From a virus: a stretch of 64,000 bases of DNA. Under the pieces are notes generated by a model, which was given only the letters and a program-made list of their open reading frames with translations, was not told where the DNA came from and made no database searches. Shown here piece after piece: positions 19,817 to 57,916 of this stretch (position 1 is the stretch's first letter; each line of letters begins with the position of its first letter). Location: positions 62,001-126,000 of IMG/VR virus record IMGVR_UViG_3300023174_000074; one strand, given 5' to 3'. The translations under genes were made by a program, and so were the position numbers.

Positions 19817-21258
19817 GTAAAGTTAAAAAAAAACCAATAATAGATTTAGAATCTCTTAACACGGATCAGAAGACAGCTTTTGAAGATTTAAGGGATTTCG
19901 TTTGTGATAAGGGAGATGATAGCGTCTATGTGCTAAAAGGTTGGGCAGGAACAGGAAAGACCTATTGTGTGAGTGTGCTTGTCAGATATGTGCTCGAGGT
20001 GATACACCCGACACATAATTGGTATAGAATAGCAGTTACAGGACCAACCAATAAATCAGTGAGGGTTATTAAAAAAACCAGCGGGCTGAAAAATCCTAGG
20101 GTTTCGTTTCAAACCATTCATAAAATGCTTGGTCTAACCGAAAGGATAACCAAAGAAGGTGTACAGGAATTTGTTAATCAAGGGGATTTCCAACCAAAGA
20201 TAAAGACGGTAAAGCTACTTATTATCGACGAGGTTTCGATGCTGAATGATGATCTGTTTCAAGAAGTATTAAAATACAGAGACAAGATAAAAATTATCTG
20301 CATGGGAGATCCTGCACAGATTCCCCCTGTAGGTAAACCCGATTGTATTCCTTTTAGAGAAGAGCTTGCTGCAGGCTATAGAATTAAAACTCTTAGTCTA
20401 AAACAGATCATGCGTCAGAAGAAAGATAATGCTATTATCGAATCATCTGTGGCTATTAGATCTGAATTAGGTAGAGCTAAAAATCCAGTTGAACCCGTTA
20501 CAAAGCTAAATGAGAAAGGTGAAGGAATAGAATTTCTTAATCTCAATATTCCTGAGACAAGAAAAGGATTCTCAGAAATACTGAGACGATATTTTGTCAC
20601 CGATGAATTTAAAAAAGATTCTGAGTATGCAAAGATCATTGCATGGAGAAATAAAACTGTTGCAACCATGAATGATGTTATTCGTAAAGTTATCTACGGA
20701 GACGAAGCATTAGGATCAAAGATATTGGTTGGGGAAAAACTAATCGCAAACAATCCGATCATTCAAGGTGAGTCAATAGTTCTGAACACCAACGACGAAT
20801 TCAGTGTGGATAGTTTTACTATCGGTAGCGATGATCTTAGATATCACATATCAGATCAACCCGATGCCGAACCATTTCCAATAACACTAAAGTATTATGA
20901 AACTGTTGTTAGCTATCTTGATGATGAGGATGAAACGGTAAGGGTTAACATACAAATTCTACACGAGGACAGCGAGATGGATTTTAAAAAGCTGGCTAAT
21001 ATTCTAAAGCTTAGAGCTATAGAAAAGAAAGGCAAAGATAAAAGCTGGATAGTGTACTACAACTTTCTTAGAAAGTATGCTGATGTGAATTATGCTTATT
21101 GCACTAGCGCACACAAATCACAGGGAAGCACATACAATACAACATTTGTTCTGGAGGATGACATAAATCAAAATTTTAATATAATTGAAAAAAATAGAAT
21201 ACTTTATACCTCCTATACTAGAGCCAGTAGAAAGCTGTATGTACTTAGAAGATTTTAG
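19813..21258 (+). CDS. dda: Dda-like SF1B DNA helicase
   Basis: Motif I is GWAGTGKT at residues 43-50, motif Ia TGPTNKS, motif II LLIIDEVSML near 139, motif III GDPAQIPPVG, motif V/VI TSAHKSQGSTY and YTSYTRAS near the C-terminus. This is the RecD-like SF1B layout of T4 Dda, a 5'-3' helicase used in origin melting and strand displacement. At 481 residues it is slightly longer than T4 Dda. The last 20 codons are duplicated in decayed form at 22462-22521, beyond a homing endonuclease. The start at 19813 overlaps the preceding stop. Confidence 0.85.
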   Translation: MSKVKKKPIIDLESLNTDQKTAFEDLRDFVCDKGDDSVYVLKGWAGTGKTYCVSVLVRYVLEVIHPTHNWYRIAVTGPTNKSVRVIKKTSGLKNPRVSFQTIHKMLGLTERITKEGVQEFVNQGDFQPKIKTVKLLIIDEVSMLNDDLFQEVLKYRDKIKIICMGDPAQIPPVGKPDCIPFREELAAGYRIKTLSLKQIMRQKKDNAIIESSVAIRSELGRAKNPVEPVTKLNEKGEGIEFLNLNIPETRKGFSEILRRYFVTDEFKKDSEYAKIIAWRNKTVATMNDVIRKVIYGDEALGSKILVGEKLIANNPIIQGESIVLNTNDEFSVDSFTIGSDDLRYHISDQPDAEPFPITLKYYETVVSYLDDEDETVRVNIQILHEDSEMDFKKLANILKLRAIEKKGKDKSWIVYYNFLRKYADVNYAYCTSAHKSQGSTYNTTFVLEDDINQNFNIIEKNRILYTSYTRASRKLYVLRRF

Positions 21259-22424
21259 AATCTACCCAAACTCCATCCGTCACTAATATATTTATCGATT
21301 TCTTGCACATCAACCCTAACTGATTTTTTTGATTTATTTATCCATTTTTTACCCCTTGATGAATTTCCCATGCCTTTTCGACTTTCGTCAGTGATATTTA
21401 ACTTATCTTTATCAACGATTCTTCCCAAACACCATCCCTGACATATCCATTTTTCTAGTTGGTCAGCCTTAACCTTTTTATTTTTATCAAAGCAATTATT
21501 TATCCAGATGGTATTTTTATGAACATTGCTCATTTTTAATTTAGCATCCGTTGATCTTTTCATCCCCTTACTTACGTGTCTCAATTCTCCAGATTCCAAT
21601 CTAGGATCATCTATTTTAACCCTCATTCCGTTACCGCTAACATCTTTAACTGGTATTGTTCCCTTAGTAACACCCTGTAATTCACCGGATATAAATCGAG
21701 GATCATTTCGATCCAATATTAAATTTTTGCCTCCATCCTTAACAACTACTTTATGTGTAAATTTATGAATTAGCTCACCACTTTTTAATCTTGGATCGTC
21801 GGTTTTTATTCTTATGTTATTACCATTTTTATCATTTACACATACTGTTCCTTTTATTATACCTGTCATTTTTTCATTTTTGAATTCGTCCTTATTAACA
21901 TAACGAATAATTCCATTTTTATCCCTTCCTACAGCATTGTTACAATGTATACTTTTTAGATCACCATTAAGATAATTAGGATCATCGGTTGAAACCTGTT
22001 GGGTCTTTCCCTCCCCGTCCTTAACAGTAACATATCCTGTTGATATAAATATTAATTCTCCGCTTAAGTACTCTGGATTATTAACTGAGGTCTGAAACGT
22101 ATCCCCTTTTTTATTTCTAACCGTGACAACTCCACAGCTTCCCCCTCCACCACCACCTAAAGTGATATTATATACATTTTCATTTAATATAAATTCGTTA
22201 CTTACTAGTTCTTTTTCTTTTTCTAACATTTTATTTCTACTATCAAAATCATACAATATAATTTTTTTAAATTTCTCTATTCCGTATTTTTTAATAGCTA
22301 GTTTAATTAATTTACCTGATCCCATATAGTTATCATTAATATTATATGTGGAATGACACCCAATATAGATTTTACTATTTACTAGATTTAATATTAAATA
22401 AATCAGATGATGTTTTTTCGCCAT
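21255..22424 (-). CDS. GIY-YIG homing endonuclease with repeated DNA-binding units
   Basis: The N-terminal 95 residues form a GIY-YIG nuclease: LIYLILNLVNSKIYIGCHST, then NDNYMGSG, LIKLAIKKYG and a catalytic Glu region near KEKELVS. Six units of about 30 residues follow (roughly 100-285), each with a V-x-VKDxxG start and a DDPRLxSGEL core. The C-terminus has two W-x-NxxxxKxV modules. Phage Seg-like enzymes have similar modular DNA-binding tails. It ends overlapping the helicase stop, converging on it, and has GATATATA 20 bases upstream. Confidence 0.8.
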   Translation of the reverse strand: MAKKHHLIYLILNLVNSKIYIGCHSTYNINDNYMGSGKLIKLAIKKYGIEKFKKIILYDFDSRNKMLEKEKELVSNEFILNENVYNITLGGGGGGSCGVVTVRNKKGDTFQTSVNNPEYLSGELIFISTGYVTVKDGEGKTQQVSTDDPNYLNGDLKSIHCNNAVGRDKNGIIRYVNKDEFKNEKMTGIIKGTVCVNDKNGNNIRIKTDDPRLKSGELIHKFTHKVVVKDGGKNLILDRNDPRFISGELQGVTKGTIPVKDVSGNGMRVKIDDPRLESGELRHVSKGMKRSTDAKLKMSNVHKNTIWINNCFDKNKKVKADQLEKWICQGWCLGRIVDKDKLNITDESRKGMGNSSRGKKWINKSKKSVRVDVQEIDKYISDGWSLGRF

Positions 22425-22461: not shown

Positions 22462-22521
22462 AATCGAATATACAGCCTACACCAGGCGAGTAAGAAAGTT
22501 TACGTCATGAGAAGATTCTAG
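22462..22521 (+). pseudogene. Remnant of the dda 3' end
   Basis: Read in one frame, this stretch encodes NRIYSLHQASKKVYVMRRF then stop, matching the helicase terminus NRILYTSYTRASRKLYVLRRF with small differences. It is separated from the intact helicase end by the GIY-YIG gene, and its stop overlaps the end of the next leftward endonuclease. I read it as the original helicase terminus left behind when the endonuclease arrived together with a replacement terminus. Confidence 0.7.
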
Positions 22522-23312
22522 TAGCTTTCTCTGATACGGATAAACTTGCAGTCAAGAAATTCCTCGATAGCCTTTTGTCTTAGTCTATCCTTTTCTTTTA
22601 ATTCGTCATTTATATAGTGGTATTTTTCGTCCCATTCATAAACTGTGTTATTTTCTTTATCATATCCATCTACCCAATATCCAAGTTCTTTAACGTGAAA
22701 TTCACACCCGTTTTCTGCGTGTTGAATTCTAATCCCGGTTTCTTCCATTAGCTTATTAAAGTACTCGCAGCCTTTTTTGCTATATGGAGGATGGAATTTT
22801 TTATCGATTGCTTTAAGCTTATCAATAAAAATTACTCTTAGCTTTTTCCTAGTCTCCTCGTTATGGTGTTTCCCGAATTTAGTATCTCTTAATGAATTTT
22901 CCCAATTAGTTCTATGCTCATCACTCATCTTCTTTCCTTTATTCCATGGCGTGCTTGATCCCCATTCGGTATCTTTAATCCCATTCTTCCAATTGCTCTT
23001 ATATTCTTCACTCATTGGCTTACCCTTATTCCAAGGTTCATATCCTTCCTTGTGTACATAAGCCCAGCCCACAGCATTTGGTTGAACTTTCTTGCTGCAG
23101 CTTTTACCGCAATGTTCTCTGTATCCCTTAGCTATATTATTAAATGAAGCTTCCCTATCACACTGCTTGCATTTTATCTTCTCCCCATTTAAAACGTATT
23201 GATCATAATAATCCTTGGTATCTATTTTATGGTTCTGTTTTATGTGACTTCCGAATCCGTTATTTGACTTTGTTTCGAATCCGCATATCTTACATTTCTT
23301 GATATCTTCCAT
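22518..23312 (-). CDS. Homing endonuclease, zinc finger plus NUMOD3 repeats, Vsr-like
   Basis: The N-terminus has a C2H2-like finger (CKICGFETKSNNGFGSHIKQ) and a second Cys cluster (CKQCDRE, CGKSCSKK). Two or three NUMOD3-type motifs follow (EPWNKGKPMSEEYKSNW, TPWNKGKKMSDEHRTNW). The C-terminus (GYWVDGYDKENNTVYEWDE, then KEKDRLRQ and CKFIRIRE) has the strand-Asp/Glu-Trp pattern of Vsr-like nucleases. It ends on the old helicase stop codon and has GATATATA 21 bases upstream. Confidence 0.75.
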   Translation of the reverse strand: MEDIKKCKICGFETKSNNGFGSHIKQNHKIDTKDYYDQYVLNGEKIKCKQCDREASFNNIAKGYREHCGKSCSKKVQPNAVGWAYVHKEGYEPWNKGKPMSEEYKSNWKNGIKDTEWGSSTPWNKGKKMSDEHRTNWENSLRDTKFGKHHNEETRKKLRVIFIDKLKAIDKKFHPPYSKKGCEYFNKLMEETGIRIQHAENGCEFHVKELGYWVDGYDKENNTVYEWDEKYHYINDELKEKDRLRQKAIEEFLDCKFIRIRESY

Positions 23313-23577: not shown

Positions 23578-23670
23578 ACCTAACGGTTGGGTATATGTGA
23601 AGTACCTTACCACAAAACTTAAAAATTAAATAGAAACTTTAGGAGGTATTTCACATATACCTTGTTATAA
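23578..23670 (+). repeat. attC-like site 1
   Basis: ACCTAAC at 23578-23584, a long stem (GGTATATGTGAA with TTTCACATATACC), and junction GTTATAA at 23664-23670. Short class (93 bases) with no start codon for the next gene. Confidence 0.8.
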
Positions 23671-23682
23671 CTCGTTTTAATT

Positions 23683-23925
23683 ATGACTCGATTTGAAAGA
23701 AAAAACAGAACTGAAATAGTTTATAAAGGATTCGGTGGTATTACCGATGCTTTTGACGATATGTATAAACAACTTTGGAGAATAAATGATGAAGAATATA
23801 ATTATTTATGTGAAACACTTACTGATGAAGAATTGAGTGATATTACGCCAGAATTTAAAACTATATCTCAAATAAAAAAAGCGATAACAATAGTAAATAC
23901 GGCTCTTTCTAAAAATGAGTTATAA
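23683..23925 (+). CDS. Cassette gene 1, hypothetical (80 aa)
   Basis: Unknown small acidic protein with its own ATG 19 bases after the G^TT junction. It reads MTRFERKNRTEIVYKGFGG, then a helical, acidic C-terminal half (CETLTDEELSDITPEF). The stop codon TAA is the first three bases of the TAAC box of the next attC-like site. Enclosed by attC sites 1 and 2, it is a complete cassette. Confidence 0.6.
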   Translation: MTRFERKNRTEIVYKGFGGITDAFDDMYKQLWRINDEEYNYLCETLTDEELSDITPEFKTISQIKKAITIVNTALSKNEL

Positions 23926-24014
23926 CGGTTGAGTGTATGTGTAGGTTTTTTGAAATTAAACTTTAATATATACTAAAAACTAAATAAAAAACTTACATAT
24001 ACACCTTGTTATGT
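23920..24014 (+). repeat. attC-like site 2
   Basis: TTATAAC at 23920-23926, stem GAGTGTATGTGTA with TACATATACACC, junction GTTATGT at 24008-24014. Short class (95 bases). Confidence 0.8.
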
Positions 24015-24065
24015 GCCGTTTTTTCTTATGGACTTCAAATTATTAATTTTTAAAATAAACAAAAT

Positions 24066-25133
24066 ATGAATTTAGCAAGTGTACAAAAAGTAATCAAATT
24101 AACCCCAATTGAGGGTGCAGATTTGATAGAAACAGCAACCGTATTAGGTTGGGAAATTGTAGTAAAAAAAGGCGAATACAAAGTGGGTGACTTATGTAGT
24201 TACATTCAGATTGATACAGTAGTTCCCGAACTACCCGAATATGAATTTTTAAGGGAACGGAAATTTAGAGTAAGAACAATCAAATTGCGTAAACAAATTT
24301 CGCAGGGGCTTGTAGTTCCTTTACCTAATGGTAAATGGAAAGAAGGCGATGATATTACAGAGGTTTTGGGAGTAAAGAAATACGAGAAGCCAGACAATAA
24401 CCCAGAACGCTATGAGAAGCCAAGAATGTCTAAAAAATGGTATAAGAAATGGATTTACTTGTTTAAATATAATTTCCTTTTCAAGTTGTTCCCAAAATTA
24501 CAAAGGTTAAGCCGTTCTCCATTCCCTAAAAATTTGGTATCAATTACCGATGAAGAAAGAATACAAAATATACCACATGTATTACAACAATACGCTGGTA
24601 AATTATTTGTAGTAAGCTATAAACTTGATGGTAGTAGTATTACAATAATTCATTCAAAGGTTTTTGGTAAAAGTAAGTTTAGAATTTGCAGTAGAAGATT
24701 TGAATTGCACGACAAAAAAAATGATTGGTACAAAGTATTTACTGATACTAATTTTAAATATGAAATTGCAAAACTTGTAAAGCACTTTAAAACTGATGAT
24801 ATAATTGTACAAGGCGAAGCAATAGGCAAATTTAACGGCAACCACCACAACTTACAAAAAGAGCAAATTAGGTTGTTTAATATCAATGTAAACGGCAAAA
24901 GATTAAACCAACAGGAATTTATAAAAACTTGTTTGGCAAATAATATTCCACATTGCCCAATGTATAAGGAAATTGTTTTAAATCACTCTTTACCCGAAAT
25001 ATTGGCTTTGTCTGAAATTAAAGACGTGATTAATCCATCAGTAGATGTTGAGGGTTTAGTTTGGCGTTGCGTTGAAGATAATTTAAGTTTCAAAGTGATA
25101 AACAATAAATATCTTCTTAAAAACAATGAGTAA
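24066..25133 (+). CDS. Cassette gene 2: RNA ligase, DraRnl (DRB0094)-like
   Basis: The product has the two-part layout of the Deinococcus RNA ligase family: an N-terminal OB-like domain (residues about 1-110, VGDLCSYIQIDTVVP, IKLRKQISQGLVVPLP) followed by the nucleotidyltransferase domain with motif I YKLDGSSI, in which Lys is the AMP acceptor. EGLVWR and FKVINNKYL near the end fit motifs IV and V. At 355 residues it is full length. It would seal nicks or 3'-OH/5'-P breaks in RNA. A homologue lies in the phage core at 38874. This is by far the largest cassette and seems unbroken. Confidence 0.85.
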   Translation: MNLASVQKVIKLTPIEGADLIETATVLGWEIVVKKGEYKVGDLCSYIQIDTVVPELPEYEFLRERKFRVRTIKLRKQISQGLVVPLPNGKWKEGDDITEVLGVKKYEKPDNNPERYEKPRMSKKWYKKWIYLFKYNFLFKLFPKLQRLSRSPFPKNLVSITDEERIQNIPHVLQQYAGKLFVVSYKLDGSSITIIHSKVFGKSKFRICSRRFELHDKKNDWYKVFTDTNFKYEIAKLVKHFKTDDIIVQGEAIGKFNGNHHNLQKEQIRLFNINVNGKRLNQQEFIKTCLANNIPHCPMYKEIVLNHSLPEILALSEIKDVINPSVDVEGLVWRCVEDNLSFKVINNKYLLKNNE

Positions 25134-25154
25134 CGGGGTGTTTCCTAAAATGGC

Positions 25155-25208
25155 ACATAACGGTTGAGTGTAAAAAATCGTTTTAATGTTTTTTACACTT
25201 TGTTATAA
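25155..25208 (+). repeat. attC-like site 3 (short)
   Basis: ACATAAC at 25155-25161 and GTTATAA at 25202-25208, with stem GAGTGTAAAAAA / TTTTTTACACTTTG. Only 54 bases, the shortest in the array, with a very small loop. Confidence 0.75.
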
Positions 25209-25233
25209 GTATGTAAAACAAAAATTATACAAT

Positions 25234-25401
25234 ATGAAAGAAAAAATTGAAAATAGGTTAAAAGAGTTATATGATGAATACAAACATGTAACTGATAAAG
25301 ATAGAGTTTGGATTAAACAAACAGGTGGTTTAACAAGAAGAGAACGAATTGAAAAATGTAAAATTCTAATAGAAGAGTTAGAAACATTATTAAATTCATA
25401 A
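25234..25401 (+). CDS. Cassette gene 3, hypothetical helical protein (55 aa)
   Basis: The ATG at 25234, behind an A-rich leader, is preferred to an upstream in-frame start inside the attC-like site. The product is charged and helical (MKEKIENRLKELYDEYKHV, then TRRERIEKCKILIEELETL), possibly a coiled coil. It lies in its own cassette between sites 3 and 4. No family recognised. Confidence 0.55.
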   Translation: MKEKIENRLKELYDEYKHVTDKDRVWIKQTGGLTRRERIEKCKILIEELETLLNS

Positions 25402-25416
25402 TTTTTGTTTTATTAC

Positions 25417-25539
25417 TTATAACGGTCACAGATATATGTAGTTGTTTAACACAAAACTTAAATAATATGAATAAAGATAAAAATTTAGAACAAAACTTGG
25501 ATAAGAGTAATAAAAAATTACATATATCTGATGTTAGTT
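25417..25539 (+). repeat. attC-like site 4 (long, carries a start codon)
   Basis: TTATAAC at 25417-25423 and GTTAGTT at 25533-25539; stem ACAGATATATGTA with TACATATATCTGA. Long class (123 bases). The loop holds the ATG (25467) of the gene in the next cassette. Confidence 0.75.
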
Positions 25540-25739
25540 GTAGTATTGATGATATTAAAAAATGGGTTGATAGTGAAATTGGTTACTATGACGAATGTGA
25601 TACTGTTGAAGATGCGATTGATGATATGTTACATGATTTCAAAACACATTTTTTAAATATTGATTACACAAAGAAATTTGATAAGGAAAACGAACTTATA
25701 AAATACTTCAAAAGTGAGTGGGAACAATATTACAACTAA
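25467..25739 (+). CDS. Cassette gene 4, hypothetical acidic protein (90 aa)
   Basis: The reading frame starts at an ATG inside attC-like site 4, crosses the junction as DVSC and continues SIDDIKKWVDSEIGYYDE in the cassette body. No alternative ATG precedes this apparent domain, so translation from the attC-borne ATG seems required. The stop overlaps the TAAC box of site 5. The first 22 residues would therefore change if this cassette moved next to another attC. Confidence 0.55.
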   Translation: MNKDKNLEQNLDKSNKKLHISDVSCSIDDIKKWVDSEIGYYDECDTVEDAIDDMLHDFKTHFLNIDYTKKFDKENELIKYFKSEWEQYYN

Positions 25740-25865
25740 CGGTTTGCAGATAGGCGAAGGCAAGGATTTAGAAAACAAAAATTTAACTTTAAAATAGAAT
25801 TTAATATGAAAAAGAAATCATCATTTTACCACAACACCCTTGCTTTTGCTTATGTGCTGTTAGTT
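25734..25865 (+). repeat. attC-like site 5 (long, carries a start codon)
   Basis: AACTAAC at 25734-25740, GTTAGTT at 25859-25865; arms GCAGATAGGCGAAGGCAAGG and CCTTGCTTTTGCTTATGTGC. 132 bases; the loop holds the ATG at 25806. Confidence 0.75.
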
Positions 25866-25991
25866 GCAGTTTTTTTGTGGGTGGCAATTTCAAGCACCAT
25901 TCAAAGGTTCAAATGTGCTAAACTTACTGAAACAGAAATATTTATTAGAATACCAAAGTCTTTTGTGTGCGATTGGGCAAATTGCAACTAA
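25806..25991 (+). CDS. Cassette gene 5, small membrane protein (61 aa)
   Basis: Starts in attC-like site 5. One strong membrane segment (LAFAYVLLVAVFLWVAISS) spans the recombination junction: its first half is encoded by the attC arm and its second half by the cassette. A short polar tail with two Cys follows. The stop overlaps the TAAC box of site 6. Family unknown. Confidence 0.5.
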   Translation: MKKKSSFYHNTLAFAYVLLVAVFLWVAISSTIQRFKCAKLTETEIFIRIPKSFVCDWANCN

Positions 25992-26116
25992 CGGTTGATG
26001 CTTGGTGCAGTTGCGAAATTGAACGATAAACTTAATTAAAAAACGGAAACATGAATTGGATTAAAAATATTTTTAGAAAACGGAAACAAGCAATTGCATC
26101 CAAGCATTTGTTAGCG
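25986..26116 (+). repeat. attC-like site 6 (long, carries a start codon)
   Basis: AACTAAC at 25986-25992, GTTAGCG at 26110-26116; arms TGATGCTTGGTGCAGTTGC and GCAATTGCATCCAAGCATTT. 131 bases; ATG at 26051. Confidence 0.75.
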
Positions 26117-26311
26117 GCTGGGCTGGAGTTTAGACGAACATCTCTTGGTCAAGCTGCATTTATTCCGAAAGGCACAACAAGTAATTATGCTGATAAAATA
26201 ATGTTCCCCGACAATTGGAGTAGAGCAGAATTTAGAGCAATGGCAGATTACATGGATGCGTTTCCTGACTGCACATTATTTTCAGATGGAAGTGGTAAGC
26301 CTTGCCGCTAA
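26051..26311 (+). CDS. Cassette gene 6, hypothetical (86 aa)
   Basis: Starts in attC-like site 6 with a basic N-terminus (NIFRKRKQ), crosses the junction as LLAAG and continues into LEFRRTSLGQAAFIP. The C-terminal half has a conserved-looking DNWSRAEFRAMADYMDAF stretch. The stop overlaps the TAAC of site 7. Not recognised. Confidence 0.5.
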   Translation: MNWIKNIFRKRKQAIASKHLLAAGLEFRRTSLGQAAFIPKGTTSNYADKIMFPDNWSRAEFRAMADYMDAFPDCTLFSDGSGKPCR

Positions 26312-26436
26312 CGGTTGGGTATAAATGAAGTGCCGATTTTGAAAAACAAATGTTCAATTAAAAACAAAAGATAAAATGGAAAACAAAAGTTCAATTACAG
26401 ACGAAAGTAAGGCATTGCAACAAGCCGATGTTAGCA
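26306..26436 (+). repeat. attC-like site 7 (long, carries a start codon)
   Basis: CGCTAAC at 26306-26312, GTTAGCA at 26430-26436. 131 bases with imperfect arms (AAGTGCC with GGCATT). The loop holds the ATG at 26376. Confidence 0.65.
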
Positions 26437-26621
26437 GCAGTGCGAGGTATATAATTGTTGATGAAAGCGTTTCAGCACATTGTTGTTTTGAATGCACAAT
26501 AATTGATACCGCAGCAGGTAAAGAAGCTTATGGTGATTACTGGAAGCGTTCAATGTGCGAAACATTCGACAGGGCAGAAGCTGAAATTATATGTGATGCG
26601 CTCAATAAGCATTTCTGCTAA
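26376..26621 (+). CDS. Cassette gene 7, hypothetical Cys-containing protein (81 aa)
   Basis: Starts in attC-like site 7 and crosses the junction as DVSSS into ARYIIVDESVSAHCCFEC. A second part (EAYGDYWKRSMCETFDRAEA) ends ALNKHFC. It looks like a small beta-alpha protein; family unknown. The stop overlaps the TAAC box of site 8. Confidence 0.5.
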   Translation: MENKSSITDESKALQQADVSSSARYIIVDESVSAHCCFECTIIDTAAGKEAYGDYWKRSMCETFDRAEAEIICDALNKHFC

Positions 26622-26709
26622 CGATTTCGGGCTTGGCGAAGTGCCGCTACTCGAAACTTGAATTTTAGCACTAACTGTCCTGCGGCATTTTGCCAAACCC
26701 GTGTTATGG
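26616..26709 (+). repeat. attC-like site 8
   Basis: TGCTAAC at 26616-26622, GTTATGG at 26703-26709; stem CGGGCTTGGCGAAGTGCCGC with GCGGCATTTTGCCAAACCCG. Short class (94 bases), excellent pairing. Confidence 0.85.
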
Positions 26710-26754
26710 GATAGTTTTAAAAACCTTTTAGGGTGGGCATTTAAAAACGAAATA

Positions 26755-27213
26755 ATGATAATAGCGATTGATTTTGATGGAACTTGCGTAACACACGAAT
26801 TTCCAAAAGTGGGCAAAGACATTGGTGCTGTGCCTGTATTAAAAGAGTTGGTTAAAAATAACCACCAATTAGTTTTGTTTACAATGCGAAGCGACATAGT
26901 TAATCCAACGGGAGAGGACAATGAATTGCACCTTGAAAGCGGAAACTATTTAACTGATGCAATTGATTGGTTTAAACAAAACGAAATACCACTTTACGGA
27001 ATACAAACCAACCCGATACAGCACACTTGGACTACAAGCCCGAAAGCATACGCACAACTTTACATTGATGATGCTGCTTTAGGATGCCCACTTTTGGTTG
27101 ACATTGTAAAAGATGGTGACGAAAGTATTAAGCAAGTTGGCAGACCTTATGTTAATTGGGAAAAGGTAAAAGAAATGCTAATTGATAAAGGGATTATTGA
27201 TGATGAAGACTAA
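26755..27213 (+). CDS. Cassette gene 8: HAD-like hydrolase/nucleotidase (152 aa)
   Basis: Start chosen at 26755 so that the product opens MIIAIDFDGTC, the HAD motif I with Asp6 and Asp8. FTMRSD supplies motif II and YIDDAALG the metal-binding acids. The layout resembles small phage and bacterial HAD-fold hydrolases of the deoxyribonucleotidase type. It has its own start within the cassette and ends 32 bases before the box of site 9. Substrate unknown. Confidence 0.7.
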   Translation: MIIAIDFDGTCVTHEFPKVGKDIGAVPVLKELVKNNHQLVLFTMRSDIVNPTGEDNELHLESGNYLTDAIDWFKQNEIPLYGIQTNPIQHTWTTSPKAYAQLYIDDAALGCPLLVDIVKDGDESIKQVGRPYVNWEKVKEMLIDKGIIDDED

Positions 27214-27245
27214 CCCGTGCGGTGGGAAAAGGTTTTTAAAATTTC

Positions 27246-27378
27246 CCATAACGTTTTGCAGCTATGCCCAGTTGGGCAATTTTAAAGACAAAATAATCAA
27301 CTTAAAATAAAGTAAATATGGAACACGAAAATATTAACAAACAAGAAGATGCCCAATTGGGTATAGGTGGTGTTAGCA
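27246..27378 (+). repeat. attC-like site 9 (long, carries a start codon)
   Basis: CCATAAC at 27246-27252, GTTAGCA at 27372-27378; arms GCTATGCCCAGTTGGGCAAT and GCCCAATTGGGTATAGG. 133 bases; ATG at 27318. Confidence 0.75.
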
Positions 27379-27530
27379 TCAGTGCCTTAACGGAATGGCT
27401 TAAAAGCGAATCTGTTTATACAGCATTGAGGTACGCATCAAAGAACCCATCAAATAGCGGTATGGATAATTGTGAAGATAAAAGTTATTTACATCTATAC
27501 AATTTAATTTGTCAGATTCGTAGGCATTGA
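27318..27530 (+). CDS. Cassette gene 9, hypothetical (70 aa)
   Basis: Starts in attC-like site 9, crosses the junction as GVSIS and continues ALTEWLKSESVYTALRYASK. The frame stops with TGA immediately before the TGCTAAC box of site 10. Small, mostly helical, no family recognised. Confidence 0.5.
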   Translation: MEHENINKQEDAQLGIGGVSISALTEWLKSESVYTALRYASKNPSNSGMDNCEDKSYLHLYNLICQIRRH

Positions 27531-27616
27531 TGCTAACGGTTGCGGATATGAGAAGGGAAAAAATACCAATGAAAAATAAACAAGAATTTTTTACTTTCTT
27601 ATATCCGTTGTTATCG
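27531..27616 (+). repeat. attC-like site 10
   Basis: TGCTAAC at 27531-27537, GTTATCG at 27610-27616; stem GCGGATATGAGAAGGGAAAA with TTTACTTTCTTATATCCG. Short class (86 bases). Confidence 0.8.
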
Positions 27617-27679
27617 GTCTGGTTTGGTTTCAATTTTTGTGCTGAGGGTTTAGAATTTCATCATTAAATAAATATACAA

Positions 27680-27943
27680 ATGGAAAACAATAATTGCATA
27701 GTAGAGAAAAAATTTCTGTTCTGGAAATGGAAAGCGGTGGAGCATCATTACAAGATGCACCGAATAAGTAAATTCATGGATTGCTCAACATCATTCCATG
27801 TTGATTGGGTATGTAAGTGCGGGGCAAGGTGGGAACAGAAATTTGTTGAACAGGACGAATTATTGTTGAAAGGAATATCAACTGAAATTCTAAATAAGAT
27901 TGACGGTTGGCATTCGCACTACTGCGGGAAGGAAAAAAATTGA
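27680..27943 (+). CDS. Cassette gene 10, hypothetical metal-binding-like protein (87 aa)
   Basis: Own ATG 70 bases into the cassette. The protein has an aromatic, basic N-terminus (KKFLFWKWKAVEHHYK) and a WVCKCGARWEQKF segment, with a late CGKEKN tail and several His, suggesting a zinc site. It ends 12 bases before the box of site 11. Not recognised. Confidence 0.55.
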   Translation: MENNNCIVEKKFLFWKWKAVEHHYKMHRISKFMDCSTSFHVDWVCKCGARWEQKFVEQDELLLKGISTEILNKIDGWHSHYCGKEKN

Positions 27944-27955
27944 AACCAAACTTGC

Positions 27956-28087
27956 CGATAACGTTCCAAGTATTGCCGATGGTGGGGCATTACACCACCA
28001 AAGTTCAATTAACAAACTAAAGTTCAAAATATGCACACAGATTCAAAAAAGCACGAAACCCCCACTATTGGCAATACTTTGTTATAT
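27956..28087 (+). repeat. attC-like site 11 (long, carries a start codon)
   Basis: CGATAAC at 27956-27962, GTTATAT at 28081-28087; arms AAGTATTGCCGATGGTGGGG and CCCCCACTATTGGCAATACTT. 132 bases; ATG at 28031. Confidence 0.8.
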
Positions 28088-28321
28088 GCTGTTAAAAATG
28101 GGCAGTTGAAAAGGTGGTTTTACGAGTTTAAACACGGACACCCATTTCTACTTGACGAAGAAGCTACTATAATTGTTTCTACAAGATTAAGTGATAAAAG
28201 TGCTTCTTGGATGAATGATGAACAGATTAAAGAACTCGTAAAACTTAGAGTGAAAGCAATGTATAAAAAGAAATTTCCAAATGCAAAACGGTGGTCGTTG
28301 CCCATTTTTAATTGCATATAA
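28031..28321 (+). CDS. Cassette gene 11, hypothetical (96 aa)
   Basis: Starts in attC-like site 11 and crosses the junction as LLYAV into KNGQLKRWFYEFKHGHPF. A later LDEEATIIVSTRLSD and a basic helix follow. The stop overlaps the TAAC box of site 12. Family unknown. Confidence 0.5.
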   Translation: MHTDSKKHETPTIGNTLLYAVKNGQLKRWFYEFKHGHPFLLDEEATIIVSTRLSDKSASWMNDEQIKELVKLRVKAMYKKKFPNAKRWSLPIFNCI

Positions 28322-28448
28322 CGGTTGAGGATTTATTTAGTTGCGAATAAAAAATTACAAAATATGATAACAGAAGAACAGTTGAAAAAAGCAGAAAAAG
28401 TTATTGCTGACTACAAAGCCGAGCAATTGAATAAATCCTATGTTATAA
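28316..28448 (+). repeat. attC-like site 12 (long, carries a start codon)
   Basis: ATATAAC at 28316-28322, GTTATAA at 28442-28448; arms GGATTTATTTAGTTGC and GCAATTGAATAAATCC. 133 bases; ATG at 28364. Confidence 0.75.
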
Positions 28449-28600
28449 AATCGTTTCCGAGCGATGATGAAATACATAAGGAATCGTTGAGGGTGTGCAG
28501 GATAGAGGCAGAGTTTGTGCAAGGGGTAGCGTGGTGCTATCACGATAAAGGAGCAAAATGGATGATGGAAGAACTAAAGAAGCGAGGAAATGTTTTATAA
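28364..28600 (+). CDS. Cassette gene 12, hypothetical helical protein (78 aa)
   Basis: The ATG at 28364 lies in attC-like site 12; the frame crosses the junction as YVIKSF and continues PSDDEIHKESLRVCRIEAEF. VQGVAWCYHDKGAKWMMEEL is a Trp-containing helical C-terminus. The stop overlaps the TAAC of site 13. Not recognised. Confidence 0.5.
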   Translation: MITEEQLKKAEKVIADYKAEQLNKSYVIKSFPSDDEIHKESLRVCRIEAEFVQGVAWCYHDKGAKWMMEELKKRGNVL

Positions 28601-28689
28601 CGGTTTTGGTGTATGAGAAGGTTTGCTTAGATAAATTTTCAAATTACAACTGAACTTAACAGCAAACTTTCTTATACACCTTGTTATAC
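28595..28689 (+). repeat. attC-like site 13
   Basis: TTATAAC at 28595-28601, GTTATAC at 28683-28689; stem GGTGTATGAGAAGGTTTGCT with AGCAAACTTTCTTATACACC. Short class (95 bases). Confidence 0.85.
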
Positions 28690-28750
28690 ACAGTGCGGTT
28701 TATTTGGTAGAAACTTTAATTAAAAAACAAATATAAAAAAATTAAAAATT

Positions 28751-29128
28751 ATGAAAAATTATTTATTGACAGATTTTAATACTGAAAGATGGAAAGGTAT
28801 TAATATAGAAAGTGCAGAAACACAAGTAGAAAAATTGAATGAAAAAATTAATAAAATTGGATGTTTATTTGGTGAAATAGGGAATCCAGAAACATTTGAG
28901 ATTTCGTTATCAAGAGCATCACATTCAATTAAAAATTTAACTTTTGTAGATGGTAAAGTTTATGGTGATGTTGAATTTTTGAATAATGATAACGGAAAAC
29001 AAGCAGACAATTTTATTAATAATATGAATTGTATATTTGGAATAAGAAGCACAGGAACATCAGAACAATATAAAGATGGTGAAATAGTTATCCATTCAAT
29101 TTTTACTTGGGATGTAATCAATGACTAA
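28751..29128 (+). CDS. Cassette gene 13, hypothetical (125 aa)
   Basis: Own ATG in the last unit. The product mixes a polar N-terminus (MKNYLLTDFNTERWKGINI) with a beta-rich middle (FEISLSRASHSIKNLTFVDG) and a TSEQYKDGEIVIHSIFTW end. I do not recognise a family. It is followed by a small hairpin (CTAATAA at 29125-29131 with TTATTAG at 29142-29148) and then the bare half-site. Confidence 0.55.
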   Translation: MKNYLLTDFNTERWKGINIESAETQVEKLNEKINKIGCLFGEIGNPETFEISLSRASHSIKNLTFVDGKVYGDVEFLNNDNGKQADNFINNMNCIFGIRSTGTSEQYKDGEIVIHSIFTWDVIND

Positions 29129-29182
29129 TAATTTTTAATTTTTATTAGATGAACTTGATTAGAAGTAGAAATGTAGCATTGT

Positions 29183-29189
29183 GTATAAC
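29183..29189 (+). repeat. Terminal half-site of the cassette array
   Basis: GTATAAC, with the flank GCATTGTGTATAAC, is complementary to GTTATACACAGTGC at the start of the last cassette (28683), so it is that cassette's right-hand box. No matching L arm or GTT junction follows; the recombinase gene starts 17 bases later. Confidence 0.6.
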
Positions 29190-29205
29190 TATTATATATA
29201 AGTAA

Positions 29206-30036
29206 GTGTACCATAAACCATTTAATATCAACACTTTGAATCAAAAAATTATAAAGATTTGTGAGGAAAAGTTTATATATTTAAACTACTCACCAAGAAC
29301 AAAAGACAATTATATGTGTCATATTAAAGATTTTCTTAATACTCTTAATGACAAACAGATAATTCATTGTAGTTCCAAAGATTTTCAATCATATCTAGAT
29401 AATTATCAATTCACCTCTGTTTCTCAACAAAACCAGGTTATTAACGCTATTAGATTTCTGTATAAGTACGGACTTGATAAGAAATACGATAAGGTATCGT
29501 TTAAAAGACCAAAATCGGAAAAGAAGCTACCCAGAGTTATTGATGGTGAATTTATAAAAGAAAAACTAAACAAGATTGGTAATCTGAAACACAAAGCAAT
29601 CTTAACACTAACCTATTCAGTTGGATTAAGGGTGTCTGAAATAGTTAATCTAAAGATTGAAGATATTGACTCAAAAAGGATGCTTATACACATCAAAAAC
29701 GCAAAAGGCAGAAAGGATAGGATAGTTCCGCTGTCATTAACTGTTTTAACTTTGCTAAGAGAATATTTTAAAGAGTATAAACCTTCAGATTATCTTTTTA
29801 ATGGGCAAAATTCTTCATTGTATTCAATACGAAGCTGTCAGCAAATTTATAAAAAATACATTGATGACGGGTCATCAATACATACACTAAGGCATTCCTC
29901 TTTCACCAACCTATTAGAATCAGGAACTGATCTAAGGATTATTCAAAAAATAGCAGGTCATTCCAGCTCTAAAACAACAGAAATTTACACACACGTCTCA
30001 AATAGTCTTTTAAGTAGGATAAAACTTCCAATTTAA
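29206..30036 (+). CDS. Tyrosine recombinase next to the cassette array
   Basis: A 276-residue integrase with an N-terminal SAM-like core-binding domain (about 1-95) and a catalytic domain with Arg142 (VGLRVSE), a Lys in the KGRKDR hairpin, His226 and Arg229 (HTLRHS), His252 (AGHSS) and nucleophile Tyr261 (EIYTHV). Start codon GTG. The stretch between the Lys hairpin and HTLRHS is short and lacks the extra helix-bearing insertion that defines integron IntI enzymes, so it is closer to Xer-like or phage integrases. It is parallel to the cassettes and downstream of them, not divergent at the leading end. Confidence 0.85.
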   Translation: MYHKPFNINTLNQKIIKICEEKFIYLNYSPRTKDNYMCHIKDFLNTLNDKQIIHCSSKDFQSYLDNYQFTSVSQQNQVINAIRFLYKYGLDKKYDKVSFKRPKSEKKLPRVIDGEFIKEKLNKIGNLKHKAILTLTYSVGLRVSEIVNLKIEDIDSKRMLIHIKNAKGRKDRIVPLSLTVLTLLREYFKEYKPSDYLFNGQNSSLYSIRSCQQIYKKYIDDGSSIHTLRHSSFTNLLESGTDLRIIQKIAGHSSSKTTEIYTHVSNSLLSRIKLPI

Positions 30037-30561: not shown

Positions 30562-30886
30562 AGGCGAAGATCGAAGATGGTATGCTGATCTTCCGGAGTA
30601 TATTGCTCAAGGAGGAACAGAGGAGGAGTGCGAGATGGTAGCAGGAGCTGATGATTGGCTGGATTTCATTTCAGAAAACAGAGAAGCTGTTACATTAGCT
30701 TTATCGGATCAGGATTCGCTAACAGAGAAAATAGTTCTATACGAGAGTGACGAATCCGGAGCTACTTACATAGCTCACACTTTCAAGGGGGAAGATATTA
30801 ACCAAATACTTTGGCTTTGCTCAGTTACAGTTTTTGTATTTGGTCATTACCCAAAAGAAATATATTATCGCGTAATAAGAGAATGA
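30536..30886 (+). CDS. Hypothetical phage protein (116 aa)
   Basis: Begins MTMVIRFYKGEDRRWYADLP, an opening resembling DUF-type phage proteins with a beta-hairpin N-terminus, followed by an acidic helix-rich part. The stop overlaps the RNA ligase start (ATGA), so it is translationally coupled to the ligase. Function unknown. Confidence 0.6.
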   Translation: MTMVIRFYKGEDRRWYADLPEYIAQGGTEEECEMVAGADDWLDFISENREAVTLALSDQDSLTEKIVLYESDESGATYIAHTFKGEDINQILWLCSVTVFVFGHYPKEIYYRVIRE

Positions 30887-32022
30887 AATACGATTTAAAC
30901 ACATTAAATGACTATATTGAGCGTGGACTTCTGATCAAGAATTCTCACCCAACTCTGCCTATAGACATCTATAACTATTCTAGAGATTGCCAATTTTCGC
31001 AATTGTGGGATGAAATCACGTTAAATATGAGGGGTACGGTTTTAGATCGTGAGGGTAACATTGTGGCTAGATCTTTTCCTAAGTTCTTCAACATGGAAGA
31101 GCATAAGCCGGAGGAAATTCCAAATGAGGAGTTTGAAGTGTTCGAAAAAATGGACGGATCATTAGTAATTCTTTTCCACTATGAGAGCGAATGGCATTTG
31201 GCTACCAGAGGATCTTTCGTTTCTGAGCAGGCAATAAGGGGTAAAGAAATCCTAAAAAAATACAGATATGAGAGACTGATCCCAGGATTTACCTATCTGT
31301 TCGAGATCATCTATCCCGAAAACAGGATCGTGTGCAACTATGACTATGAGGACTTAATACTTCTTGGGGTAATTGATAACAAAGATGGTTATGAACTTAG
31401 AATCCACCATAATAGCATACATTTAGAGGGTATTAGATTTGTTAATATGTACAACAATCTAGGATTTAAGATTGTTAAAAAATACGATGGTGTTCAGGAT
31501 TACAAGCAACTGAAATCTATTATCGAGAATAATGCAGAAGGATTTGTAATCAAATTCAAATCTGGATTCAGAATGAAGATTAAAGGGGAGGAGTACGTCA
31601 GGTTACATAGGTTGATAACAAACTTCTCAAACGTTGATATCTGGGAGCTGTTAAAAGACGGAAAGAATGTCGACGAGTTTCTAGATAGAGTTCCTGATGA
31701 ATTTGATAAATGGGTTAAGAGAACGATTCGTGATTTAAAGTACAGTAAATACGCAATTGGTGAGAGAGCAGGTAAGGTCCACGATTACTTTAGATATGGT
31801 AAATACAGTGACCGCGAAACAGAGCCTACTAAAAAAGAGTTTGCCGAGCATCTAGAATTTTGTAAGGTTGAGCCAAGCATAAGATCTATATGTTTTGCAA
31901 TGTGGGATAGAAAGGACTATGATCACATTATATGGAAAATGCTAAAGCCAAAATATCAAAAACCTTTCTGGAATAAGGAAGAAGAAATTCCAACAGATTC
32001 AAAATGGATTAAAAAAGATTAA
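30883..32022 (+). CDS. T4 Rnl1-like RNA ligase
   Basis: The ATG at 30883 overlaps the preceding stop. Upstream of the active site the enzyme has LNMRGTVLD and VARSFPKFFN, the pattern preceding the adenylated Lys in T4 RNA ligase 1. Motif I is EKMDGS, with Lys89 as AMP acceptor. Motif III-like FEIIYPENRIV, motif IV EGFVIKF and motif V MKIKGEEYV follow in order. At 379 residues it matches Rnl1 (374). It seals RNA, classically tRNAs cleaved by host anticodon nucleases, and is followed by a phosphoesterase, a kinase-like and a cREC gene. Confidence 0.85.
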   Translation: MKYDLNTLNDYIERGLLIKNSHPTLPIDIYNYSRDCQFSQLWDEITLNMRGTVLDREGNIVARSFPKFFNMEEHKPEEIPNEEFEVFEKMDGSLVILFHYESEWHLATRGSFVSEQAIRGKEILKKYRYERLIPGFTYLFEIIYPENRIVCNYDYEDLILLGVIDNKDGYELRIHHNSIHLEGIRFVNMYNNLGFKIVKKYDGVQDYKQLKSIIENNAEGFVIKFKSGFRMKIKGEEYVRLHRLITNFSNVDIWELLKDGKNVDEFLDRVPDEFDKWVKRTIRDLKYSKYAIGERAGKVHDYFRYGKYSDRETEPTKKEFAEHLEFCKVEPSIRSICFAMWDRKDYDHIIWKMLKPKYQKPFWNKEEEIPTDSKWIKKD

Positions 32023-36988: not shown

Positions 36989-38050
36989 ATGAAACATAAA
37001 CATCACATAATACCCAAACATATGGGTGGGACAAATGACCCAGAAAATATAAAATCCCTCTCCATAGGGGAACATGCGGAAGCACACAAAGTACTTTATG
37101 AGGTGCATGGGAAAATTGAGGATCGTTTAGCGTGGCTGGGTCTTTCCGGAATGATCGAAAGGGAAGAAATTATAAGGGAATTGATGGTGGAGAATGGTAA
37201 AAGAGTAGGTAAAAAAATGTTATTGGAGGGAGGAGGGATATTCAGGGAAGGAATTAGAGACGAGCAGTTCTATAAAGATGGGATTTCTCTTGGTGGTAAA
37301 ATCTCTGGTAAAAAACACAGCGAATCAGGACATTGCAAAAGAATAGCTCCACTCGGCGGTGGGAAAAATCTGGGTAAAAAATATTGGCTCAATATATTAA
37401 CAGGAAAGGAAACTGCATCTTTTGATAGTCCAGGGGAAGATTGGGTCGAGGGTGTTAATATGGCAAGGGTTAATTTGGAATGGCTTAGAGCCAATTCGGA
37501 TAACGTAAAAGGAACATTTTGGGTTACCGATAATGAGACTGGGGATACTAGGATGATACATGCAGGTAAACCCATACCTGATGGATTTACTAAGGGGAGA
37601 AAGCTTAATACCCGAAGTATAGTAGATCTATGCAATTCACCATCAACTTATCCAATCGATGGTATATTACAAGTAGAAAATACTTATAGCCTGATTATCT
37701 TCAATCCATCATTCATGAGATGGGAGCTAATACCTAAAAAAAATTCAAAAAGAATTATTAAAGTGTCTCATACTGATTATTATGGTCTTGTTTGGCTGAG
37801 AGATATAATTATAGAAAAATATTCACTGACACACAAAAAATCCACATTTGATTTTAACAGCTGTAATAATTTAGGGGATTCCATAAACCTATTAAGAGAA
37901 TGGAGGGAATATATCAAAATTAATAAAATTTTAGAAACTAAAAAATTAAAAAAATGGAGAAGAGAGGATTATGACAGTAAATTAAAATCACTCAGTGAAA
38001 GTTACAGTTTTATAGAATTAATCAGGGATAAAATCATTAAACCCCTTTAA
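36989..38050 (+). CDS. HNH homing endonuclease (353 aa)
   Basis: An N-terminal HNH nuclease (HHIIPKHMGGTNDPENI, then EHAEAHKVLYEVHG) is followed by a Gly/Lys-rich linker with a GGKISGKKHSESG NUMOD-like piece, modules related to the W-V repeats of other phage endonucleases, and a charged helical C-terminus. Free-standing with its own late octamer. Its 3' end overlaps the opposing small gene by 33 bases, as if it had been inserted between 36591 and 38018. Confidence 0.8.
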   Translation: MKHKHHIIPKHMGGTNDPENIKSLSIGEHAEAHKVLYEVHGKIEDRLAWLGLSGMIEREEIIRELMVENGKRVGKKMLLEGGGIFREGIRDEQFYKDGISLGGKISGKKHSESGHCKRIAPLGGGKNLGKKYWLNILTGKETASFDSPGEDWVEGVNMARVNLEWLRANSDNVKGTFWVTDNETGDTRMIHAGKPIPDGFTKGRKLNTRSIVDLCNSPSTYPIDGILQVENTYSLIIFNPSFMRWELIPKKNSKRIIKVSHTDYYGLVWLRDIIIEKYSLTHKKSTFDFNSCNNLGDSINLLREWREYIKINKILETKKLKKWRREDYDSKLKSLSESYSFIELIRDKIIKPL

Positions 38051-38873: not shown

Positions 38874-40016
38874 ATGGAAAGAAAACTCGCATCGATCAGA
38901 AAGATTGATAAAATAACAAAACATCCAAATGCTGATTCTTTAGAAATATGTCACGTTGGTGGATGGAAAGTCGTAACTAAAATAGGGGAATATACAGAAG
39001 GCGATTTAGCTGTTTATTTTGAAGTTGATTCCTTTTTACCCCTAGAGGAAGACTTTGAATTCCTAAGAAAATCATCATATAAGAAGATGGGGGATATTGA
39101 AGGATTCAGATTAAAAACGATTAAACTTAGGCAAGAATTAAGTCAAGGTCTTTTACTTCCACTGTCTATTCTTGAAAAAGATGATGAAATGAAAATCGGG
39201 ATCAGCAAGCAACCCTGGGGCGATCAACTTCAGCTTGGACCTTATGATGATGCAATAGTTATCGAAGAAGGAGCTGATGTTACTGCTTACATGTGTGTAC
39301 TGAAATACGAACCGCCAATCCCAGCAGAACTCTCAGGGAAGGTTAAAGGAAATTTTCCTGGATTCATCAGAAAAACCGACGAGGAAAGAATCCAAAACAT
39401 GACTGCTGAATATGAGAGCATGAAGGATAAGCACTATTACGTTACAGAAAAGCTTGACGGAAGTTCTGCAACGTATTACTTCAGAGACGGAGTATTCGGT
39501 GTGTGTTCAAGAAATCTGGAATTAGCAGATCCAGGGATATTCGAACCGGGATCAGTTCTTTGCGATGATGGTGTCGAAAGACCTAGGAAAGAAAACACTT
39601 TCTGGAAAGTTGCTCGTGAATTATTCATAGAAGAAAAATTGGGAACACTAGAAGAAAATTACGCTATTCAGGGTGAACTTATCGGGGAAGGTGTTCAAAA
39701 AAACCCTTATAGAATCAAAGGTCACACTCTAAGGATCTTTAATGTGTTCAATATAGATAAGCAAGAGTATCTTGGACTTGATGATATGGTACATTTCCTA
39801 AACAAGATAAATGTAGACGACAAACCACTTGAGCTTGTGCCTGTCATTAATTACGATTACAAATTACCACCGACCATCGACGAGATCATCAGATATGCTG
39901 ATGATAAATCTAGATTGAACGGGGAAACAGATAGAGAGGGCATAGTTATTAGAAACAAAGACAAGAGCGTTTCTTTCAAAGCTATATCAAATACATTTTT
40001 ATTAAAAGAGAAATAA
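38874..40016 (+). CDS. RNA ligase, DraRnl (DRB0094)-like
   Basis: Same architecture as the cassette ligase at 24066: an N-terminal OB-like domain (about 1-140, VYFEVDSFLPLEE, IKLRQELSQGLLLPL), then ligase motif I EKLDGSSATY, motif III-like YAIQGELIGEG, motif IV EGIVIRN and motif V VSFKAISNTFLLKEK. 380 residues. Enzymes of this family seal RNA with 3'-OH and 5'-phosphate ends. It gives the phage a second core ligase in addition to the Rnl1-like enzyme. Confidence 0.85.
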   Translation: MERKLASIRKIDKITKHPNADSLEICHVGGWKVVTKIGEYTEGDLAVYFEVDSFLPLEEDFEFLRKSSYKKMGDIEGFRLKTIKLRQELSQGLLLPLSILEKDDEMKIGISKQPWGDQLQLGPYDDAIVIEEGADVTAYMCVLKYEPPIPAELSGKVKGNFPGFIRKTDEERIQNMTAEYESMKDKHYYVTEKLDGSSATYYFRDGVFGVCSRNLELADPGIFEPGSVLCDDGVERPRKENTFWKVARELFIEEKLGTLEENYAIQGELIGEGVQKNPYRIKGHTLRIFNVFNIDKQEYLGLDDMVHFLNKINVDDKPLELVPVINYDYKLPPTIDEIIRYADDKSRLNGETDREGIVIRNKDKSVSFKAISNTFLLKEK

Positions 40017-57824: not shown

Positions 57825-57893
57825 AGTCAGGTGGCGTGTTGGCATACGCACCCGATCATAAGGGCGAGAGCAGGTTCGATTCCTGTCCTGACT
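57825..57893 (+). tRNA. tRNA-like gene, possible CAT anticodon (Met/Ile2), 69 nt
   Basis: Acceptor AGTCAGG pairs perfectly with CCTGACT. D-arm GCGT/ACGC with a GG in the loop and T-arm GCAGG TTCGATT CCTGT are normal. The anticodon arm is short: CCC pairs with GGG around an eight-base loop GATCATAA containing CAT, and the variable region is five bases. The first stem position and lower stem pairs are missing, so decoding may be abnormal. CCA is not encoded. Confidence 0.5.
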
Positions 57894-57916
57894 GCTAAAA
57901 ATAAATTATAAACAAT

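Follow-up and report, generated by a model that had tools for sequence, protein, structure and literature searches.

A probable phage-encoded integron-like platform whose cassettes carry their attC before the gene

Which unit moves in a cassette array carried by a phage, and what moves it? The question is raised by a 64,000-nucleotide (nt) stretch of viral DNA, positions 62001-126000 of the 126,808-base record IMGVR_UViG_3300023174_000074 in IMG/VR (the window; coordinates below are window positions). A first-pass annotation, made from the sequence alone, had described an integron-like array of shuffled cassettes. The array is real, and we conclude that the phage very probably encodes a complete integron-like platform at this locus, where the 13 cassettes are accompanied by an attI-like site and a dedicated tyrosine recombinase, both overlooked in the annotation. 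Because recombinase and attI adjoin the array, the evidence argues for a complete platform and not for a cluster of attC sites lacking an integrase (CALIN).

The 13 attC-like sites have the form TAACGG...stem...TTGTTA, span 23581-28686 and are each followed by one rightward gene, as first annotated; the array ends at 29189, with the recombinase gene beyond it. A strict scan (TAAC followed by G or A, then a stem, then GTTA) recovered 12 sites in 5.9 kb where 0.06 were expected (at most 1 in 200 first-order Markov shuffles). The site that it missed, attC 7 at 26309, has correct boxes and cassette flanks and a stem with an unpaired outer half; it looks like a hybrid, as though two sites had recombined inside it.

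These sites behave as structures under comparative analysis. Across 44 sites of 85-91 nt, all from other viruses and none from the window, covariation was 0.663 as compared with 0.162 in shuffles, standard pairs filled 97.2% of the paired cells, and 17 of 19 stem pairs showed changes on both sides. One stem position is a G·T pair on the gene strand in 43 of the 44, and no conserved extrahelical base was found in the phage hairpins. Over 235 sites, the two inner arms matched their own partner at 14.7 and the arms of other sites at 5.7. A covariance model trained on other phages' sites, a check that the first-pass annotation had suggested, detected six window sites at E <= 4e-7 and 11 of the 13 in a whole-genome scan. 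Another suggestion of that annotation, single-strand folding, was borne out in part: as single-stranded DNA (ssDNA), 8 of the 13 sites gave z-scores of -2.2 to -4.1, and five (four long-loop sites and 26309) were not significant. The covariation and the strand-specific G·T pair are consistent with recombination of a folded single-stranded attC. Hairpins between co-directional genes could instead decorate a static operon as terminators or RNA elements, and attCs can be weak terminators (cited in PMC9892861). We regard this as extremely improbable: the hairpins matched no Rfam family, the ends of a cassette complement each other across the gene, and cassette order and content differ between near-identical viruses, including an order swap described below.

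The lengths of the sites are quantised at 48, 86-91 and 124-128 nt in the window and in viral loci L002-L081, with loop sequences that vary, and of 99 long sites, 60 hold the first ATG within the attC. The motif TANNTTTG, a Bacteroidota promoter element, is found in attC plus 60 nt in 56 of 340 cases as compared with 32 when shuffled; the enrichment is only mild, and we do not claim a promoter there.

The borders of the mobile unit can be read from the cassette ends. Measured outward from the boxes, the mean run of complementarity between a cassette's own start and end is 4.9 bases in the window and 4.50 bases over 260 viral cassettes. Permuting the ends lowers it to 0.91 (at most 1.08 in 500), and the sequences on either side of a single attC give only 0.93 bases. 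The first-pass annotation was therefore right that each cassette has mutually complementary ends and that neighbours do not share them. Cassette 13, whose closing TAAC lies at 29186-29189, has ends that pair as TACACA/TGTGTA. Four cassettes each occur in two contexts, and in each case identity starts at the TAAC of the site before the gene and stops at the TAA of the site after it; virus L065 has two identical copies of a cassette, one of them ending exactly at attI. The mobile unit is an attC and the gene downstream of it: it begins with the C of one TAA^C and ends with the TAA of the following one. On the gene strand, the TAA^C junction marks the 5′ edge of each site, and a gene therefore moves together with its upstream attC; recombination at G^TT, as the first-pass annotation had it, is not supported in that form. 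Preceding attCs are 0.95-1.00 identical between copies of one gene in the clean cases. The classical parsing, a gene with its following attC, was rejected, as the attCs that come after different copies of a gene are unrelated; the table of copies included false sites inside recombinase genes, and its overall means were therefore left unused. Within the cassette, the attC comes before the gene and not after it as in a classical cassette.

The polarity of the site is reversed with respect to the gene. The phage covariance model matches chromosomal Bacteroidota attCs only on the strand opposite their genes (one stretch in this comparison, L194, is a duplicate in reverse orientation), and the bases beside the boxes are mirrored, with G after TAAC and T before GTTA in phages, as compared with A after TAAC and C before GTTA in chromosomes. 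Together these observations indicate that, with respect to the recombination site, the genes of the phage cassettes run the other way round. A duplicated cassette of Flavobacterium saccharophilum (L140) reads TTA, then gene, then following attC. Nearly all cassette open reading frames (ORFs), 210 of 214, point toward the recombinase.

That recombinase has the catalytic set R-K-H-R-H-Y, and all six residues align with Vibrio IntIA. Absent from the same alignment is the IntI-specific insert of ~40 residues near patch III, a region of 31 residues here and 79 in IntI4. The IntI family model TIGR02249 scores 145.3 bits, under its curated cut-off of 265 bits, and the nearest solved structure is archaeal XerA (4a8e). 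In the tree, the viral recombinases form one group (100/99) that takes in two sequences binned in bacterial metagenome-assembled genomes; the Bacteroidota Xer proteins are a separate group (100/99), with no clustering of the viral enzymes with XerC/XerD, and IntIA sits on a long branch, which makes its placement uncertain. Acinetobacter plasmid recombinases (NZ_CP104336 and others; FJ012881, TnpF) are 48% identical over residues 43-276. The attI-like motif AACTATNATATATA lies mostly 18-28 bases before the recombinase start and is kept there in most of the 70 rows compared, while the sequence upstream of its AAC varies; this marks it as the probable insertion site, attI. The recombinase, lacking the IntI insert, presumably reads sites that lack conserved extrahelical bases.

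A search of IMG/VR with the recombinase gave 181 related stretches, of which the best 80 were fetched. At least two sites lie upstream of the recombinase in 51 of the 55 viral loci that have at least 1.5 kb of upstream sequence, the site totals for viral loci are 340 upstream and 9 downstream, and viral contigs with a related recombinase reach 362 kb. The arrangement of array and recombinase is common in IMG/VR viruses; the first-pass remark that few such arrays are reported on phages is fair for the literature (PMC9892861) and not for this collection. Given that phages are reported to carry integrons and CALINs (PMC9892861) and that relatives of both recombinase and sites exist in Bacteroidota chromosomes, one could propose that a phage captured an ordinary bacterial integron or CALIN, of the IntI type and with gene then attC. 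This is very unlikely, as the unit is attC plus gene, the site polarity is reversed, the viral recombinases without the insert are a clade of their own, and viral arrays stand 5′ of the recombinase but chromosomal ones 3′.

Related viruses differ by whole cassettes. The sister virus L026, with a recombinase 95% identical, has the same array neighbours (95% and 87% DNA identity) and ~five other cassettes between them, and viruses L005 and L020 have cassettes 99.9-100% identical in swapped order. Cassettes 98-100% identical are found between viruses whose recombinases are 65-67% identical, and attC 11 of the window recurs with its gene at L046:5535-5901 (83%) with TAAC-exact ends. In two cultured phages of Polaribacter, P12002L and P12002S, the covariance model finds sites of the window's type and polarity. 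The two differ by one DNA methyltransferase cassette, which P12002S alone has; its insertion point is precisely TAA^C, and the flanks are 99.7% identical on one side and 98.6% on the other. Such cassette-sized gains and losses are what the first-pass annotation had proposed to look for, and they agree with its picture of shuffled content. Relatives of the cassette 2 RNA ligase (~71-79% DNA identity) occur outside arrays in L082-L089, with no attC nearby.

The platform reading draws on a cassette array with AAC...GTT palindromes, an adjacent tyrosine recombinase and an attI-type site, on the borders of the unit and the polarity and structure of its sites, on the conservation of attI, and on natural gain, loss, exchange and reordering of cassettes at box-exact borders. 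Several points weigh against it. attC 7 is degenerate; the four long-loop sites fold no better than shuffled DNA; and the recombinase lacks an insert considered necessary for IntI activity. P12002L and P12002S have no adjacent recombinase of the window's kind, so another enzyme (perhaps the host's) or homologous recombination must explain exchange there, and identical cassettes in two places could likewise come from homologous recombination. It might then be argued that the hairpins are simply a repeat family whose genes move by homologous recombination between similar copies, with no site-specific recombinase; the attC interiors are similar enough to recombine, and attC 7 has its hybrid appearance. 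However, borders fall at TAA^C where the flanks are unrelated, the end of a cassette changes in step with its own start and not with its neighbour, and a recombinase and attI stand beside nearly every array. Homologous recombination would not easily give TAA^C-exact ends beside unrelated neighbours, and we consider this explanation highly improbable.

On the platform reading, we predict that the recombinase acts on the folded hairpin of the gene strand, the one with the G·T pair, and cleaves it at 5′-TAA^C. Cassettes would be excised as circles and inserted at attI beside the recombinase gene, displacing older cassettes away from it. Because the genes point toward the recombinase, a promoter at attI, the arrangement of class 1 integrons, cannot drive them; their transcription probably comes from phage promoters upstream, and each cassette would supply its own translation start, often within its attC. 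The likely benefit would be that phages of Bacteroidota can quickly trade small accessory genes, which may play a role in adapting to hosts.

Positions of the array, attI-like site and recombinase in the window
Feature	Positions	Strand	Basis or remark
attC 1 (87 nt, left end of array)	23581..23667	+	R1 model 84.8 bits, E 8e-18; ssDNA fold z -3.4
cassette 1 body, ORF 23683-23925 (80 residues, no family)	23664..23926	+	ends GTTATAACTC / GAGTTATAAC
attC 2 (89 nt)	23923..24011	+	covariance model 71 bits, E 2e-14
cassette 2 body, RNA ligase ORF 24066-25133	24008..25161	+	Pfam PF21189, PF09414
attC 3 (48 nt)	25158..25205	+	covariance model 41 bits, E 4e-7
cassette 3 body, ORF 25234-25401 (55 residues, no family)	25202..25423	+	complementary ends
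attC 4 (117 nt), loop holds start codon of next ORF (25467)	25420..25536	+	genome scan E 5e-6
cassette 4 body, ORF 25467-25739	25533..25740	+	complementary ends
attC 5 (126 nt), start codon 25806 within	25737..25862	+	genome scan E 9e-9
cassette 5 body, ORF 25806-25991	25859..25992	+	complementary ends
attC 6 (125 nt), start codon 26051 within	25989..26113	+	weak covariance-model match
cassette 6 body, ORF 26051-26311	26110..26312	+	complementary ends
attC 7 (125 nt), outer stem degenerate, start codon 26376 within	26309..26433	+	correct boxes and flanks, weak stem
cassette 7 body, ORF 26376-26621 (phrog_19733)	26430..26622	+	complementary ends
attC 8 (88 nt)	26619..26706	+	covariance model 61.8 bits, E 3e-12
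cassette 8 body, HAD-type phosphatase-like ORF 26755-27213	26703..27252	+	NF046079 E 4e-18; phrog_1238
attC 9 (127 nt), start codon 27318 within	27249..27375	+	genome scan E 4e-8
cassette 9 body, ORF 27318-27530	27372..27537	+	complementary ends
attC 10 (80 nt)	27534..27613	+	covariance model 61.4 bits, E 4e-12
cassette 10 body, ORF 27680-27943	27610..27962	+	complementary ends
attC 11 (126 nt), start codon 28031 within	27959..28084	+	genome scan E 3e-5
cassette 11 body, ORF 28031-28321	28081..28322	+	complementary ends
attC 12 (127 nt), start codon 28364 within	28319..28445	+	genome scan E 9e-8
cassette 12 body, ORF 28364-28600	28442..28601	+	complementary ends
attC 13 (89 nt)	28598..28686	+	covariance model 78.8 bits, E 2e-16
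cassette 13 body, attI-proximal, ORF 28751-29128 (125 residues)	28683..29189	+	ends GTTATACACA / TGTGTATAAC read directly
attI-like site	29186..29209	+	TAA^CTATTATATATAAGTAAGTGTA
tyrosine recombinase	29236..30036	+	TTG start 29236 or GTG 29206 (276 residues); PF00589, PF13495

Among the cassettes we found no convincing defence family, only two weak matches. Elsewhere in the same record, outside the window and 28 kb left of the main array, a second mini-array (G000:C1:56873-57304; L200) flanks one or two small genes with two sites that match the main array in type and polarity; secondary site clusters also occur in viruses G006, G008, L025 and L069. Between a helicase gene and the array lie two homing-endonuclease-like genes (GIY-YIG; NUMOD3) at 21255-22424 (-) and 22518-23312 (-), which L026 lacks at the corresponding place, and 36989-38050 encodes a probable homing endonuclease (phrog_655). 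Two more RNA ligases, at 30811-32022 and 38874-40016, bring the total to three RNA ligase genes in 16 kb with the cassette-borne one. ARAGORN calls a tRNA at 57825-57895 with an odd anticodon loop (anticodon 'ca'). The head protein matches only uncultured phages of 634-642 kb, no terminase was found in the virus record by PF03237, and the host probably belongs to the Bacteroidota.

The locus has much in common with classical integrons (class 1, Vibrio superintegrons): a tyrosine recombinase beside attI, short genes between AAC/GTT imperfect palindromes, a junction of the G^TT type, and turnover. It differs from them in the missing IntI insert, in hairpins that show an invariant G·T pair in place of the extrahelical bases of IntI sites, and in cassette genes inverted relative to the site, with attC before the gene. 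In spirochaete reverse integrons, only intI is known to be turned. These share an unusual orientation of the recombinase gene with respect to the array (mentioned in PMC9668308); in the window, by contrast, it is the cassette genes that face the opposite way with respect to attC. Archaeal XerA and XerC-XerD have a similarly compact catalytic domain, but Xer proteins act on double-stranded dif.

The closest chromosomal counterparts are Bacteroidota arrays (Flavobacterium, Pelobium, Arundinibacter and others), which have recombinases 42-48% identical and without the IntI insert, related attCs and duplicated cassettes; unlike the phage arrays, they lie 3′ of the recombinase, with attCs of ~126 nt and the gene before the attC. 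Their attC lengths are nearly all 117-129 nt despite varying loops. In the chromosomal arrays L107, L145, L140, L137 and L149, the recombinase would probably escape annotation as IntI by standard software, and IntegronFinder 2.0 listed for Bacteroidetes a single complete integron, in Salinibacter ruber, those of Chlorobi/Ignavibacteriae aside (PMC9024848). In phages, Qi et al. (2023; PMC9892861), using IntegronFinder and HattCI, reported three complete integrons, 17 CALINs and one In0 in 10,705 genomes and noted 'divergent directions' in P12002L; one attC of that phage, which may not be a site matched here, recombined with IntI1 via its bottom strand and not its top (PMC9892861). Their cassette arrays are like ours in being phage-borne, and our covariance model matches P12002L sites, but neither inverted units nor this recombinase lineage was reported there. 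Phage integrons and the P12002L sites were thus already known; the recombinase lineage, the inverted cassettes and their prevalence we found nowhere in the open-licence papers searched.

We consider it likely that both Bacteroidota chromosomes and large phages carry a distinct integron branch, which current software misses because its recombinases lack the IntI domain, that in phages this branch came to have back-to-front cassettes with the 5′ end of the gene contained in the attC, and that these form a gene-exchange network among distant phages. On the platform reading, integron-type gene capture is a standing part of large phage genomes and not a rare accident, and it would account for the way in which these viruses trade short genes of unknown function that may counteract host defences. 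A survey that looks for the IntI domain has probably overlooked the entire group. A recombinase without that domain, paired with sites that lack conserved extrahelical bases, offers a natural experiment on the recognition of folded strands, and the cultured phages P12002L and P12002S make the system testable at once. The inverted cassette breaks the textbook rule of gene then attC, and the expression of captured genes needs a new answer.

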